Assembly (NCBI GenBank): GCA_964006375.1
Contig: OZ023265.1
Location: forward strand, 157,794,118 to 157,858,117
Direction of reading: 5' to 3'
DNA length: 64,000 nucleotides
DNA from: Tillus elongatus
Lineage: Eukaryota; Arthropoda; Insecta; Coleoptera; Cleridae
Position numbers and translations under genes: made by a program
Shown: piece after piece, positions 1 to 49,878 of the stretch
Layout of the letters: each line of letters opens with the position of its first letter
Position numbering within the stretch: position 1 is the first letter of the stretch
Notes under the pieces: generated by a model
What the model saw: the letters and a program-made list of their open reading frames with translations, nothing else
Databases searched by the model: none
What the model was told of the DNA's origin: nothing

Positions 1-275
1 GTTATGGTAGCGAATTTTCATTAAATGCTTCAAATTTGAATAGCTGAATTTGCTCTAAACTTATAAGGTTTGTTGGAAACACTTTAAGTTTATTTTTGAA
101 CAATTTTTATACACTTCAAGCAATAAAGTTATTCTCATAAAATATGGTACAATGTGTCTACTATATAGGTTATACTGGTAACCAAGTTTGATGCCTGCTC
201 TCTTATAAAACAGACATGTGCTGTTAGAATATTTTTATGAAAATTCACTACCATAACGCACTTGCTGCGTCCAGA
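1..275 (+). mobile_element. MITE family A, right-hand part (left end outside window)
   Basis: The segment begins inside the left terminal repeat (GTTATGGTAGCGAATTTT at position 1) and ends with the complementary terminal repeat, TTGCTGCGTCCAG, near 275. The inside matches other ~310 bp copies, for example 4684-4995 and 7246-7559. It has no coding capacity. The ends are inverted copies of CTGGACGCAGCAAGTGCGTT, so I read it as a non-autonomous DNA transposon. Its superfamily is unknown. Confidence 0.8.
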
Positions 276-10320: not shown

Positions 10321-10399
10321 CGTGTCATATATTTAGTGTTGGAGGGCTGGATACCGTAGCCGTTTAGCTTTATAGGTGTATTTTCGCTGCAATTAGTAT

Positions 10400-10436
10400 A
10401 CCGGACTGACGAGCTGTATTTAGAGCGAAACCGGTT
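10400..10436 (+). ncRNA. hammerhead ribozyme, damaged (unit 1 of + array)
   Basis: Core CTGACGA is at 10406-10412, then a stem II with mismatches (GCTGTATTTAGAGC) and GAAACCGGT. The cleavage C and the 3' strand of stem I (CTACGGT in the other units) are missing, a 7 nt deletion between two GGT repeats. Predicted inactive. Confidence 0.75.
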
Positions 10437-10708
10437 CTAATTGTGGAGAGGATGCATCTAGTCTTACATACTTCCCTATATTTGGGTAAAAATGGGCCTG
10501 GGCTGACAATTTACTAATTTGTTAGTTGGTTGCATACAGTCTCTATTTTTTAACATTCTGTGTTATTTGGAGCTGCCGCGACAACATACTATTTGGTTCC
10601 GCAACGAGGTGGCGGCACGTGTTTCGTTTCTTACATCTCACTTAGTATTGGAAGGCTGGCTACAATCTCTATATTACTTTATAGGTGTATTTTCGCTGCA
10701 ATTAGTAT

Positions 10709-10751
10709 GCCGTACTGACGAGCTCTAATTAGAGCGAAACCGGTCCATGGT
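10709..10751 (+). ncRNA. type I hammerhead ribozyme (unit 2 of + array)
   Basis: Stem I strand GCCGTA (10709-10714); core CTGACGA (10715-10721); perfect stem II hairpin GCTCTAATTAGAGC (10722-10735); GAA then ACCGGT palindromic stem III (10736-10744); cleavage C at 10745; stem I return strand CATGGT (10746-10751), with one A-C mismatch. All invariant core residues are present. Stem III has no loop as a monomer, so activity would need a dimeric transcript or a very tight turn, as proposed for minimal animal hammerheads. Confidence 0.85.
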
Positions 10752-10869
10752 TCTAATTGTGATGAGAATGCATCAAGCCTTACAGATTTCACCTTTTATT
10801 CATTTTTTTAGTCATTCGTTTCATTTTACCCTTGTCTGATCAGATTGTTGTTATTCCGATAATTTTTTT

Positions 10870-20700: not shown

Positions 20701-20705
20701 ATTAA

Positions 20706-21280
20706 TACAGACTTTGAGACTATTTCTCTGGCTTCACTGTTGGGTTTCGTTTCTGTAGGTGAAGGGCGTAACCAGCGCGTAAGCTAACTGGAGCAAGAGG
20801 CCCTTATGAATTCTACATGTTCTCTGATGCTTTTCAACGTTTATGTGCTTGACAGCATCCTCAGACAGATAAAAATTAAATTAGTACGAAATCATGACAA
20901 CTACAAATAAATATTTGTTGCTATGTTATGATGTTTTGTTCAAAAAATGCATCAAACTTAAAATAAAATGAAACATTGATAACGCATCTGTTTTATTTTA
21001 TTTTTAGTTTGATGTGTTTTTTAATTAAAACATCATAACATAGCAACAGATCTTTATTTGTAGTTGTAATAATTTTCTACTAATTCAATCTTTATCTGTC
21101 TGAGGATGCTCTCAAGCAGCGAAACTAGTCACAGAAACGTTGAAGAACATTCGAGAACATCTAGAATTCATAATGGCCTCTTGCTCCAGTTAGCTTATGC
21201 GCTAGCTACGCCCTTCACCCACAGAAACGAAACCCAAGAGTGAAGCCAGAGAAGTAGTCTCCAACTCTGCATAAAGTATT
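20706..21280. mobile_element. inverted pair of PLE-type terminal segments
   Basis: Two arms of about 270-290 bp in inverted orientation (20706-20972 and 20993-21280) meet at about 20983. Shared landmarks are TTAGCTTATGCGC / its complement, CATCATAACATAGCAAC, and ATTTATTTGTAGTTGT. A third copy of the same segment lies at 26210-26508, directly downstream of a PLE endonuclease frame, which is why I assign it to PLE terminal repeats (pLTRs). The right arm keeps a hammerhead motif; the left arm has lost it by a 13 nt deletion. Confidence 0.78.
21095..21135 (+). ncRNA. hammerhead ribozyme motif in PLE terminal segment
   Basis: Stem I TCTGT (21095-21099) pairs with ACAGA (21131-21135). Core CTGAGGA (21100-21106); stem II TGCT / AGCA around a CTCA loop (21107-21118); two unpaired bases; GAA (21121-21123); AC-TA-GT minimal stem III; cleavage C at 21130. 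The core agrees with CUGANGA/GAA/GUC. The stem II junction is irregular, so activity is uncertain. Confidence 0.68.
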
Positions 21281-23266: not shown

Positions 23267-23452
23267 CAGGGAATAGTTTTGGTATTAAATGGATTCTAAA
23301 TATGCACGGCTGTAGCAGGAATGTTGGTGGGAATAGGAACCGCAGCTGAAGAAAAACTTAAGGTGAAAATTAGAAAGTGTGAGAGCAGAATAATTTAACA
23401 TTTATACGTTTAAGAAAAGTAAGGCTAGATGTATTCTCATCACAATTAGAAC

Positions 23453-23495
23453 CGTAGACCGGTTTCGCTCTAATTAGAGCTCGTCAGTACGGCAT
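23453..23495 (-). ncRNA. type I hammerhead ribozyme, canonical (best copy)
   Basis: Read on the minus strand from 23495: stem I GCCGTA; core CTGACGA; perfect 5 bp stem II with AATT loop (GCTCT-AATT-AGAGC); GAA; palindromic stem III ACCGGT; cleavage C (complement of 23459); stem I return TACGGT. Stem I forms six pairs including one G-U. Every invariant hammerhead residue (C3, U4, G5, A6, G8, A9, G12, A13, A14, GUH) is present with no insertion. The loop-less stem III suggests cleavage from dimeric transcripts. Confidence 0.9.
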
Positions 23496-23767
23496 ACTAA
23501 TTGCAGCGAAAATACACATATAAAGTAATACGGCTATGGTAGCCAGCCTTCCAACACTAAGTGAGATATAAGACAAGCTTTTTACACGTGTCGCCATCTC
23601 GTTGCGGAACCAAGTAGTATGTTGTCACGGCAGCTCCAAATAACACAGGATTTGAAAAAAATTAGACTGTGTACAACCAACTAAAACTTAGTAAATTGTC
23701 AGCCCTGGCCCATTTCTTCCGCAATATAGGGACAAAGTATGTAAGGCTAGATGTATTCTCAATTAGA

Positions 23768-23810
23768 ACCGTAGACCGGTTTCGCTCTAATTAGAGCTGG
23801 TCAGTTCGGC
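23768..23810 (-). ncRNA. hammerhead ribozyme with G8 mutation
   Basis: Same architecture as the copy at 23453, but the core reads CTGACCA, replacing the essential G8 by C, and stem I has one mismatch (GCCGAA). Predicted inactive. Confidence 0.8.
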
Positions 23811-24371
23811 ATAATAACTGCAGCGAAAATACACCTATAAAGTAATACAGCTATGGTACCCAGCTTTGCAAAACTAAGTGATATGTAAGACAAGCTGTTT
23901 ACACGTGTCGCCATCTCGTTGCGGAACCAAGTAGTATGTTGCCACGGCAGCTTCAAATAACACAAAATGTTAAAAAATAGAGACTGTGTACAACCAGCTA
24001 ACAATTTAGTAAATTGTCAGCTCTGGCCCACTTCTTACCCAATACAGGGAAAAAGTATGTAAGGCTAGATGTATTCTCACCACAATTAGAACCGTAGACC
24101 TGTTTCGCTTTACTTTACTAAATTTTTAGTTCGTTGTACACTATCTGTATATTTAACATTACGACTGTATTAAATATGGAACGGTTTCAATAGGTTTGGG
24201 CAAGAACAAACAACCATATATGCTATTCGAATTGAATGAAGTCTTAAAAGTTTTAATTTCCTCTTTATTAAATTATTTTGTATACAAAAACTGGCTTAAA
24301 GATTCATCCGAACAACAACAATTTGATCAGATAACGGCAAAGTGAAATGAGACTAAAAACAAGTAAAAAAA

Positions 24372-25319: not shown

Positions 25320-25400
25320 AAATTTAAACTGACCATGGATATGGATTCTAGGGGGGCTAGTTCGCGCTGATCAAGACATCTCTAATTTAATAATGGCTAC
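25010..25400 (-). repeat. family B fragment with (AT)n, reverse orientation
   Basis: Complement of the family B order: CCGATTTTCCTGGCTAAC, then ATTTTTGAGTTATTGATG, (AT)n at 25257-25313, AACTGACCATGGATATGG. It lies immediately upstream of the PLE frame. Confidence 0.75.
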
Positions 25401-25421
25401 TCTGTTAAAATAATAGATAAA

Positions 25422-25982
25422 ATGATAGAGAGAAAAGAATACAAATTAGCGATTAATTTAATTTATCCAAATATTAGAGACAAAGAAGACAACAGATACG
25501 TTTCGATAACTTATTTTGGAACCATTTCAGAAAACATTTCAAAAATTTTAAACAATTGTACAAATACAAAGGTAATTTTTAAATCTTACAACACGACGCG
25601 TGATTTGTTATTTAACGCGAAAGAAAAATCTTGTTTCTTGACAAAAGCTGGAGTTTATAAATTAGCTTGTACACATTGTAACGCAATCTACATAGGTCAA
25701 ACTTCTAGAAATTTTAACACCCGATACAAAGAACACATTTCTGCATTTAGAAATAACCACGCTGACAAATATACATTTGCAAAACATATTATTGATACCG
25801 AACATAGACCTACAATAAATAACCGCATACAACCACAACATTTTTATAATGACAAACGTAAACTAGACTTTTTTGAAGCTTTAGAAGTCAAAAGGCACAC
25901 ACACGACAATAACTACCTTGTTTTAAACGAGCAAACTGATTTAATGAATTCCCCTTTCTTGGATATTCTTCTTTCTAATTAA
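25422..25982 (+). CDS. Penelope-like element, C-terminal GIY-YIG endonuclease fragment
   Basis: An intact 186-codon frame. The GIY-YIG nuclease domain is visible from about residue 78: GVYKLACTHCNAIYIGQTSR supplies the GVY and YIG strands, NTRYKEH the catalytic Arg and His region, and FFEALEV the catalytic Glu. In PLEs this domain follows the reverse transcriptase and nicks the target; here no RT remains upstream, because family B sequence begins at about 25400. The first ATG is probably just an internal Met. The TAA stop at 25980-25982 looks genuine, and a terminal segment with a hammerhead motif follows. AT-rich codon usage matches the surroundings. A UvrC/SLX-type host GIY-YIG protein is less likely, given the CxxC-linker type before YIG and the flanking terminal repeat. 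Confidence 0.85.
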   Translation: MIERKEYKLAINLIYPNIRDKEDNRYVSITYFGTISENISKILNNCTNTKVIFKSYNTTRDLLFNAKEKSCFLTKAGVYKLACTHCNAIYIGQTSRNFNTRYKEHISAFRNNHADKYTFAKHIIDTEHRPTINNRIQPQHFYNDKRKLDFFEALEVKRHTHDNNYLVLNEQTDLMNSPFLDILLSN

Positions 25983-26209
25983 ATATGTCAAAGAAAATAA
26001 ATTTAACTATTATTTCAAAAAAGTTGTAATATAATAATGAGTTGATGTATGTCGATATTTTCGTTGTATAGAGACTACTTTTATACTGTTGTCGTTTAGT
26101 TATTTTATTGTTGTAACTGTTATCATAGTTATTATAGACTAGTTCTAGTTTTTATGTTAAATATTGACATACATCACATAGACATTTTGAAAACCTCATC
26201 TGTCATCTG

Positions 26210-26508
26210 TGTTTCATTTTATTTTCAATTTGATAAAAAATTTTTGATCAAAACATCATATCATAACATAGCAACAGATATTTATTTGTAGTTGTCATGA
26301 TTTCGTACTAATTCAATTTTAATCTGTCTGAAAATGCTGTCAAGCAGCGAAACTATAGTCACAGAAGCATTGAAGAACATCCTAGAACTTCCAGAATTCG
26401 AAGGGCCACTTGCTCCAGTTAGCTCACGCGCTGGCTACGTCGTTCACCACTAAAAACCAACAGTGAAGCCAGAGAAGTATTCTCCAAGTCTGTATGCAAT
26501 CTCTAAAA
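26210..26508 (+). mobile_element. PLE terminal segment (pLTR) downstream of GIY-YIG frame
   Basis: Colinear with both arms of 20706-21280, from TTCATTTTATTTTCAATTTG to GAAGCCAGAGAAGTATTCTC. It starts about 230 bp after the endonuclease stop. This link between the segment and a PLE coding frame supports calling the inverted pair at 20706 a PLE remnant too. Confidence 0.75.
26323..26365 (+). ncRNA. hammerhead ribozyme motif, PLE 3' region
   Basis: Stem I TCTGT (26323-26327) with ACAGA (26361-26365); core CTGAAAA (26328-26334; G8 replaced by A); one extra T; stem II GCTG-TCAAG-CAGC (26336-26348); GAA; ACTATAGT stem III (26352-26359); cleavage C at 26360. G8 is normally required, so this copy is probably inactive, though its architecture is complete. 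Confidence 0.65.

Positions 26509-33173: not shown

Positions 33174-33241
<68 letters not shown>
33174..33241. repeat. (AT)n microsatellite
   Basis: TA tract to the left of the hairpin. Confidence 0.96.
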
Positions 33242-33329
33242 TCTATTTGCTTCCTGTACTCTTTGTGATTCTCTATTGGTTTACGTGGACCGTCCCGGTT
33301 CATCATCAGCACGCTGCTGACTGTCAGTA

Positions 33330-33374
33330 GCGTGCTGATGATGAACAGGGACGGTTCGAAACTGCAGTCCACGT
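33330..33374 (+). ncRNA. hammerhead ribozyme motif, full consensus core
   Basis: Stem I GCGTG (33330-33334) with CACGT (33370-33374, one G-U pair); core CTGATGA (33335-33341); one extra T (33342); stem II GAAC (33343-33346) with GTTC (33354-33357) around AGGGACG; GAA (33358-33360); palindromic stem III ACTGCAGT (33361-33368); cleavage C at 33369. Only the T between A9 and stem II departs from the textbook core. Confidence 0.78.
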
Positions 33375-33458
33375 AAACCAATAAAGAATCACAAAGAGTA
33401 CAGCAAGCAAATAGAGTGTATATTTAAGTGATTACAGTGTAGTGCAACATTCCAAACG

Positions 33459-38607: not shown

Positions 38608-39118
38608 TTATTAAAAGCCGAACATTCGGAAAAATTTATTCCATTCTCAAGGCTACAACATGGAAAGAAAAGCTTACAATTTATATAGGAAAAATTGAAA
38701 AATTTAAAATACTTACATATAACGTGAATTTTACTATGACTAATTATGCAATAACAAACATGAAAAAACCTTTATTTAAATTTGATTGAAGTCGAAAAGT
38801 GCCAAACTGACATATAAGCTAACTATTGTTTATTTGAATTTGTTTTTTGTTTTTGTCTAGGAAATATAAGTAGGGGTAGTGATTTCTAAAATTATTACGT
38901 TTCTTTAAGTTTATTAAATTGTCGTTAAGAGTAATTTCAAATTCTTCTAAACACATTCTTTTATTACTTAAGGTTTCACAGTGTATAATATAAGCATTAC
39001 TAAAATTTATATTGTGGCCAATGTCGAGATTATGTTCAGACAGAGCGCAAGTTCCTTTTTGGAAACGTATGTCACTTTTGTGCTGTGTTAATCTAAAAAA
39101 GAACTTGCCTGCTCGCAT
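38608..39118 (-). mobile_element. second Penelope-like element fragment
   Basis: Minus-strand frame 39118-38819 (99 codons) is the C-terminal part of a GIY-YIG domain: FRLTQHKSDIRFQKGTCALS, EHNLDIGHNI, NKRMCLEEFEI. The catalytic Glu region is EEFEI; the GIY-YIG strands themselves are missing because a MITE family A end begins at 39121. It is clearly diverged from the copy at 25422. About 165 bp downstream of the stop is a hammerhead-like relic (38617-38653). Confidence 0.8.
38617..38653 (-). ncRNA. hammerhead-like relic, PLE 3' region
   Basis: Minus strand: GCC/GGC stem I, TTGAGAA core (C3 and G8 altered), stem II GGAA/TTCC, GAATGTTC in place of GAAACGTC. Recognisable by position and symmetry, not expected to cleave. 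Confidence 0.4.
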
Positions 39119-39120
39119 TT

Positions 39121-39176
39121 GCTATTAAAAACATTTTTATGGAAATTCACTTCCATAACACACTTGCTGCATCCAG
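39121..39176 (+). repeat. MITE family A right end
   Basis: TTCACTTCCATAACACACTT followed by GCTGCATCCAG. Confidence 0.75.
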
Positions 39177-43530: not shown

Positions 43531-43863
<333 letters not shown>

Positions 43864-49366: not shown

Positions 49367-49878
49367 CAAGGAAAAAGGTTAAGGCAAGATCGCAAGGAGA
49401 CAACCGCATACAGGTGTTTCAAGCTTATTAGCTATCATCAGTACGGTATAGCGAGGTGATGATGGAAACACTCTGGATGAAGAAGCAAAAAGACACGGAG
49501 TCACAACAGGCAACCAGTGCACATTTGGAGCATCATTCGGAAGACCCCCAATTCGAGGGAAACAACCAAAATCGCCACGGAGGCAAAGAAATCCCCTGAG
49601 TGAGCATCCGGAGCCCAGGAGTCATACTGAACTTAACCTTTTTCCTTTTATAGTATACAGAAATGCCGTATTAAAAATCCTGTTATAAATGATATGACTC
49701 CTGGGCTCCGGATGCTCACGTAGGTGACTTCTTTGCCTCCGTGGCGATATTGGTTGTTCCCCTCGAATTAAGGGTCTTCCGAATGATGCTGCAAATGCGC
49801 ACTGGTTGCCTGTTGTGACTCGGTGAATTTCTGCTTCTTTACCTAACCCTTTTCCTTGCAGAGTACACAGAAATGCCG

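Follow-up and report, generated by a model that had tools for sequence, protein, structure and literature searches.

The window analysed here, that is, the whole stretch of 64,000 nucleotides from the beetle Tillus elongatus, carries two loci, A and B, of a short tandem element with hammerhead motifs, and pieces of Penelope-like elements (PLE) lie in the same stretch (Table 1). At locus A, the array of two full units and a partial one described in the initial annotation is present, with units of 318 and 322 nt, a start-to-start spacing of 317-323 and a left end at 23419; it is not among the repeats reported for the window by Tandem Repeats Finder. The GC content of one unit is 0.41, no ORF of at least 100 aa in the window's ORF list overlaps locus A or locus B, neither of which has an RT or GIY-YIG endonuclease ORF, and no LTR was seen at these loci on inspection. 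To judge from its likeness to unit 2, the short inverted piece next to the partial unit is a probable remnant of a second arm, placed head to head with the array. A convincing target-site duplication was not found at locus A, the sole candidate being a 9-nt match in an offset position. Besides PLE, the window has a DDE_Tnp_1_7 fragment, a weak DDE_3 match and RT fragments (Pfam RVT_1), and long (TA)n repeats occupy 23 of the 31 rows of its tandem-repeat table, the longest spanning 329 bp at 43532-43860.

Table 1. Coordinates of the retrozyme-like and Penelope-like features of the window (sites 1 and 2 are defined in the text).
Feature	Position	Strand	Remarks
Locus B, about 1.46 units	10333..10784	+	3' end at site 1, as in locus A
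Locus B, first hammerhead	10398..10446	+	7-nt deletion spanning the cut site and the 3' strand of inner stem I
Locus B, second hammerhead	10709..10760	+	core intact; stem I pair beside the cut mismatched (A.C)
Older PLE arm	20705..20983	-	head-to-head partner of the arm at 20989..21272
Older PLE arm	20989..21272	+	hammerhead-like motif at 21099, overlapping ATG
Locus A array	23419-24110	-	two units of about 320 bp and a 52-nt partial unit
Locus A, unit 1 (3'-most), 322 nt	23419..23740	-	3' end exactly at site 1 (...CATCTAGCCTTAC|)
Unit 1 hammerhead	23451..23493	-	no core residue changed; cut predicted between 23457 and 23456
Locus A, unit 2, 318 nt	23741..24058	-	hammerhead with G8C (CUGACCA at 23798-23804), predicted inactive
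Locus A, partial unit, 52 nt	24059..24110	-	5'-truncated; hammerhead reduced to its 3' half
Inverted retrozyme piece, about 47 nt	24114..24160	+	83% identity to unit 2
Young-family PLE copy, 5'-truncated	25386..26498	+	GIY-YIG endonuclease ORF at 25386-25979; tailless 3' end

The hammerhead that the initial annotation had placed at 23453-23495, in unit 1, has the full core attributed to it (CUGACGA, GAAA and ACCGGU-C), a stem II formed by GCUC/GAGC (4-5 bp), a stem I of six pairs, one of them G.U, and a palindromic stem III; the term "minimal" applied to its type does not suit it, as stem I continues through an internal loop into further pairs and builds a long hairpin. This hairpin folds at -35.4 kcal/mol (z = -5.6), a value equalled by none of 200 shuffled sequences, and the circular fold of the unit is weakly better than that of shuffles (z -1.76, with 5 of 100 as low). 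Stem III, the palindrome ACCGGU without a loop, forms no hairpin by itself, and its pairing is thus expected only between two copies. A type I hammerhead had been claimed for each unit, which stands for unit 1, with its intact motif, and fails for the other two, since unit 2 carries G8C, a change that, according to PMC11167929, abolishes hammerhead activity, and the third copy is without its 5' half. The covariance-model search gave no match to Rfam in the window at gathering cut-offs and, at relaxed cut-offs applied window-wide, Hammerhead_HH9 on both full copies of locus A (E 0.0011 and 0.0093) and on locus B (E 0.062). A structured scan of the window for the core and stems I-III returned one canonical match, that of unit 1, and two in which A9 is followed by a bulge, compared with 2 matches in total over 200 dinucleotide-shuffled windows. 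One of the four ribozymes in the window is intact in both core and stems, and the window copies look mostly dead or largely decayed.

Locus B, a further retrozyme locus missed by the initial annotation, was located with a loose hammerhead pattern that gave 15 matches in the window against a chance mean of 3.0, and it is 84-88% identical to locus A by BLAST. Neither a target-site duplication nor an empty site was found for it. In the sense direction both loci end in CCTTAC or CCTTACA, 38-39 nt past the predicted cut, and their 3' flanks are mutually dissimilar; it was this common 3' end that led to the genome-wide analysis of ends described below. A block of 75 bp, with 79% identity between its two copies, is found by BLAST at 24298-24370 (-) and 10794-10867 (+) and nowhere else in the window, so that one copy lies near each retrozyme locus, on opposite sides of the arrays (5' of A but 3' of B). 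Two further hammerhead-like motifs were noted. One, at 49376-49451 (-), has a stem II that is mismatched at its base (U.U), belongs to about 105 nt found in one arm only of a fold-back element, and is followed by ATCTTGCCTTA, which is similar to the site-1 end of the retrozyme; the other, at 33334, has one extra U after A9 and lies in an imperfect palindrome at 33240-33450 (+) adjoining TA repeats.

The assembly of the host, which comprises 1.72 Gb and 30 contigs, was searched with one unit of each locus, yielding 3,829 unverified first-look candidates for the locus A unit (40 scored, 111 matches) and 4,935 for the locus B unit (40 scored, 90 matches); two patterns run against viral contigs and two against prokaryote genomes gave no match. 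The absence of other tandem copies had been named as grounds for abandoning the retrozyme interpretation, and such copies were found in the 80 loci sampled (39 from each query list plus loci A and B); a dispersed and old retrozyme-like family is present in the host genome. The loci come from the best-scoring 40 of each query and are therefore a non-random sample, a caveat for the interpretation developed below. Arms range from 16 to 1,560 nt in length and exceed 330 nt in 47 of 88 cases among head-to-head pairs (44 pairs) and in 33 of 35 single-arm loci; some arrays contain several units, among them L013, with a span of 1,760 bp, and L073, which fills an entire fetched stretch of 1,701 bases.

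Positions in the family are given in a unit of 322 nt that closes with the final C of CCTTAC. Two places stand out among the outer ends on the sense-3' side of the arms: site 1, which follows the ribozyme cut by 38 nt (window 317-322/1-7) and receives 65 of 122 ends, 56 of them exactly at 320-322, against 4.9 expected under uniformity; and site 2, which precedes site 1 by 137 nt (window 178-196) and receives 30 of 122, 27 of them at 183-192, against 7.2 expected. The remaining 27 ends lie elsewhere, and the outer 5' ends scatter, 28 of 34 being at neither site, four in the site-1 window and two in the site-2 window. The same pattern appears in each query set of 39 loci, with 34/13/15 and 29/17/11 ends at site 1, site 2 and other positions, respectively. 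Four of the 160 possible outer ends were left out, the fetched stretch ending there (L016 left, L034 right and both of L073); these three loci were kept in the configuration counts and omitted from the duplication test. An apparent preferred 5' end at query position ~274, which lies 11 nt before the cut, disappeared under other alignment settings, the 5' ends then scattering. None of the 122 outer 3' ends and two of the 34 outer 5' ends come within 3 nt of the position where the ribozyme cuts, which makes linear monomers with ribozyme-made 3' ends unlikely templates for insertion.

Head-to-head arms are present in 45 of the 80 loci, the other 35 having one recognisable arm. In the 22 head-to-head loci with both outer ends at sites, 20 are mixed, that is, have one arm ending at site 1 and the other at site 2, and the other two are one site 1/site 1 and one site 2/site 2 locus, a distribution with P = 6e-5 if each arm had chosen with p = 0.5 (L016, of complex structure, is counted among the 20). 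Exact duplications of at least 10 nt flank 14 of the 77 loci with enough flanking sequence and none of 913 swapped controls, and they are concentrated in the mixed loci, where 13 of 19 testable cases have one of 10-14 bp, compared with one of 58 other loci, this last being a TA repeat. In 12 mixed loci the pattern is directly visible at the duplication junctions; L090 is counted in the 13 even though its match is offset into the element, and is absent from the 12, and L032 and L044, which have common flanks, are both counted. When mismatches were tolerated and low-complexity matches excluded, a score of 9 was attained by 15 of 19 mixed loci, 4 of 58 other loci and 59 of 3,812 controls. In the mixed loci, the outer end of the second arm lies at site 2 and adjoins the duplication, the two arms are usually unequal in length, and the head-to-head junction falls at variable points.

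Two loci first classified as single-arm, L035 and L043, have duplications of 12 and 11 nt located 42 and 23 nt beyond the array, respectively, which adjoin what remains of a second arm, itself ending at site 2. They are the 2 of 26 single-arm loci ending at site 1 that gained a duplication in a longer-range search, in which 4 of 505 controls had matches of at least 10 nt. Most single-arm loci are without a duplication. A Penelope insertion lacking a duplication, with a 5' junction formed by microhomology, is described in PMC3846280, and by analogy may serve as a model for the single-arm retrozyme loci.

Regarding the state of the family, all 12 core residues tested are kept in 68 of the 105 full units of the genome sample, core conservation is 0.953 compared with 0.942 for the rest of the unit, and compensatory changes are almost absent. 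Since the core is hardly better kept than its surroundings, the sampled copies look like neutral remains of a formerly active family, with no sign of current activity. Divergence between units of one locus is 6.9% (46 pairs), compared with a mean of 9.1% between loci, and for 27 of the 48 units of multi-unit loci the nearest neighbour is in the same locus (under permutation, 0.84 on average and at most 5), the other 21 being closest to a unit of another locus. This likeness within loci fits repeated copying of one circle, and would fit copying of one multimeric transcript equally well.

The PLE of the same genome provide the comparison for these ends. The ORF of the young-family copy in the window is a GIY-YIG endonuclease fragment with a Pfam E-value of 0.0015, which does not reach the cut-off, and a relative with 45% identity to it, P0001, passes the cut-off; an additional ORF at 38819-39121 (-) resembles by eye the C-terminal part of another PLE endonuclease and has no Pfam match. 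Searches with the young family gave 38,624 first-look candidates, of which 150 were scored; many have a stop-free open frame of 836 aa, and the scored copies are 96-98% identical to the query protein and younger than the retrozyme sample. In a comparison set of ten head-to-head places and four others, chosen by eye from the 150 rows, the 3' ends of the young PLE occupy two positions, ...CTGTATGCA| and ...CAATCAATGA|, separated by about 41-43 nt, and each of the ten head-to-head pairs combines one tailed and one tailless arm. Eight of these pairs are flanked by duplications of 11-14 nt, one by a TA repeat and one by none, with no match of at least 9 nt in 90 controls; by the ends used, the test gives 8 of 10 with BLAST ends and 9 of 10 with motif-defined ends. 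The hammerhead-like motif of the young PLE, at 26326-26365 (+), overlaps an ATG and carries G8A in both copies read (that of the window and L061); since long open frames occur in many members of this family, the young PLE may do without this ribozyme. In the older PLE arm, the motif at 21099 retains CUGANGA and GAAA and has a bulged U after A9. A solo retrozyme piece of 122 nt (unit positions 68-189), ending at site 2, was seen at L067:467-584, about 108 nt from a PLE insertion, and such a case occurs in one of the 14 PLE loci.

The literature on PLE describes a comparable anatomy. A typical Penelope insert, as outlined in PMC3846280, has an inverted pLTR, a short duplication (8-10 bp in the examples given) and, in some inserts, a tail on one inverted end; for the Anolis PLE studied in vitro, PMC11167929 reports that both DNA strands are cut and extended, that reverse transcription begins inside the RNA at two adjacent sites, and that the tail is the stretch between these two start sites. 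As to animal retrozymes, PLE figure as strong candidate movers in PMC7229834, the discussion of which treats the question as open; "LINEs or PLEs" are named in PMC11722881, and PMC8969392 states that retrozymes "may rely on PLEs".

Taken together, the two fixed 3' sites, the mixed arms and the duplications, which match the anatomy of PLE insertions in the same genome, argue for a PLE-type mobilisation, and we hold it likely that the retrozyme was moved by machinery of this kind, with reverse transcription starting internally at two sites of a circular or multimeric RNA. Sites 1 and 2, where 95 of the 122 outer 3' ends lie, would accordingly be the putative start sites, which we infer from the distribution of ends. 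In the corresponding sequence of events, the array would be transcribed and the multimer cut by the hammerheads, probably as unit pairs because stem III is a loopless palindrome; the monomers would be ligated into circles, as in published animal retrozymes; and a PLE-type RT/endonuclease would make a staggered cut of about 10-14 bp and begin reverse transcription at an internal point of the RNA instead of its end. One arm would be started at site 1 and the other at site 2, presumably with one start site per DNA strand, the cDNA could pass beyond one unit and so generate tandem units, and the two cDNAs would be joined head to head at variable points, leaving the duplications outside, an anatomy which is the one seen in the mixed loci. 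Counted against this interpretation are the 3' ends at neither site, the frequent lack of duplications in single-arm loci and the lack of clear similarity between the retrozyme unit and the 3' region of the young PLE (best E 0.34, with one PLE family compared), so that a shared RNA signal for recognition in trans is not apparent. On the same side stand the self-priming offered in PMC3846280 for head-to-head PLE structures, the 21 units closest to a unit of another locus, the scarcely better kept core with its near lack of compensatory change, the weak result of the circular fold and the want of a convincing duplication at loci A and B. The retrozyme copies are older than the scored PLE copies, and the partner may therefore have been another PLE. 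A BLAST comparison of the PLE loci L059 and L067 with the 80 retrozyme loci found no retrozyme arm attached to PLE sequence.

Several rival explanations share part of this evidence. An enzyme of the LINE type, acting by ordinary target-primed reverse transcription, with the inverted arms as LINE-like 5' inversions produced by twin priming, would be in line with the other RT fragments of the window (Pfam RVT_1), and LINEs also yield 5'-truncated and inverted copies; nevertheless, a fixed second end, which 20 of the 22 informative head-to-head loci have, would not be expected from twin priming, and the retrozyme pattern matches the tailed/tailless PLE pairs (10/10), making this explanation quite improbable. 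Simple satellite DNA, with unequal exchange or DNA rolling circles as the means of amplification and the hammerhead as a passenger, would account for short tandem units, several per array in places such as L013 and L073, but is contradicted by the dispersed short arrays, the fixed 3' and variable 5' ends, the head-to-head arms and the duplications of 10-14 bp, and can be given hardly any credence. The same low standing applies to a fold-back or terminal-inverted-repeat DNA transposon that contains hammerhead units by chance: direct duplications flanking inverted arms are what such an element would leave, whereas the arms of the mixed loci end at different sites of the unit, their lengths vary (16 to 1,560 nt) and the junction between them is not constant.

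Other rivals retain PLE-type machinery. In one of them, self-priming or template switching, with an antisense copy as the template, gives rise to the second arm in place of an independent start on the second strand, and PMC3846280 does read head-to-head Penelope structures as self-priming on an antisense RNA template; the 27 outer 3' ends at neither site also speak for it. Against it, the second arm of the mixed loci has its outer end at site 2, beside the duplication, and the arms usually differ in length and meet at variable junctions, so that self-priming appears rather unlikely as the source of the second arm. In another, which is a variant compatible with the preferred PLE-type mobilisation, uncleaved multimeric transcripts are copied and neither ribozyme nor circles have a role in insertion. 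The dispensability of the PLE hammerhead for insertion in vitro (PMC11167929), the G8A of the young PLE in the two copies read and the total absence of insertion 3' ends at the cut site favor this variant; the nearest-neighbour result (27/48 in the same locus) is what a circle predicts, although a multimer from one source array would match it too, and circles are known to accumulate from published animal retrozymes (PMC7229834). Overall, copying of uncleaved multimers is possible, if somewhat unlikely.

A more specific version of the PLE-type mobilisation concerns the way in which both sites might be used. Each site of the modal unit is preceded, at a distance of 8 nt, by the end of a similar heptamer, TACATCT for site 2 and TGCATCT for site 1, and nowhere else does this unit match TACATCT with one mismatch or fewer; of the 105 units, 31 contain exact TACATCT twice, 48 contain it once and 26 lack it. 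Between the two sites is the ribozyme hairpin (224-310), and its folding would reduce the distance of 137 nt to about 51 nt, near the 41-43 nt or so of the PLE. Each insertion might then be one reaction with two ends, carried out on a single RNA circle, in which a dimeric PLE particle starts one cDNA per strand, with U[A/G]CAUCU about 8 nt upstream of both sites, and the hammerhead hairpin serves as a scaffold mimicking PLE RNA as well as a cutter. This proposal is speculative and on balance improbable, and the study of the Anolis PLE (PMC11167929) found no start-site difference between the two DNA strands, which disfavors one site per strand both here and in the sequence of events given above.

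The insertion scars in this genome are direct evidence for PLE-type mobilisation of an animal retrozyme, two exact candidate RT start sites are on offer that are suited to in vitro work, and the two-site, two-arm pattern of the genomic copies recalls the internal initiation of one purified PLE. The findings also suggest that such retrozymes be annotated as PLE-dependent, SINE-like elements with head-to-head arrays, and not as satellite DNA. A published report of such insertion ends for a retrozyme was not found among titles and abstract openings, which does not establish priority.

In relation to known systems, the assignment to animal retrozymes made in the initial annotation is supported by the units, the type I hammerhead, the GC content, the dispersed family and the duplications. 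Metazoan non-LTR retrozymes, reported also in insects, are characterized by Cervera and de la Pena 2020 (PMC7229834) as tandem units of 170-400 nt with a type I hammerhead, a GC content below 50% and neither LTR, PBS nor PPT, and the present family agrees with them in its unit of 318-322 nt, its many tandem copies, its type I hammerhead, its GC of 0.41 and the lack of a visible LTR or ORF, as well as in having duplications of more than 4 bp when present (here 10-14 bp) and hammerhead-bearing PLE in the same genome (here the young PLE motif with G8A). It differs in that most invertebrate retrozymes self-cleave efficiently according to the same source, whereas stem III is here a loopless palindrome, and in the head-to-head twin arrays, the two fixed 3' sites and the duplications of 10-14 bp, which do not figure in the description given there. 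Amphibian retrozymes, including newt satellite 2, have similar units of about 330 nt and a weak stem III that needs dimers, in which form they are more active, but their stem III consists of one pair and a palindromic tetraloop instead of a palindrome without a loop (PMC7229834). The plant LTR retrozymes (PMC4918200) are likewise non-autonomous and bear a hammerhead, RNA circles being described for them; in contrast, following the features listed in PMC7229834, they have a type III hammerhead, LTRs, 600-800 nt, duplications of 4 bp and probably Ty3/Gypsy machinery. The pDo500 repeat of Dolichopoda cave crickets is also an insect repeat bearing a hammerhead, but is presented in the accessible text of PMC2837043 as satellite DNA, with no description of its insertion ends. 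Finally, with Penelope/Poseidon PLE the family has in common the head-to-head arms, the tail at one end, the short duplications, the full and partial tandem copies and the two internal RT starts (PMC3846280, PMC11167929), and is distinguished by the absence of an ORF, by the ribozyme hairpin between its sites and by their spacing, 137 nt in the retrozyme compared with about 41-43 nt in the PLE of this genome and 30-40 bp in the PLE tails published. Head-to-head arrays with two start sites thus fall outside the retrozyme description as published in these sources, and may be a general feature of such elements.
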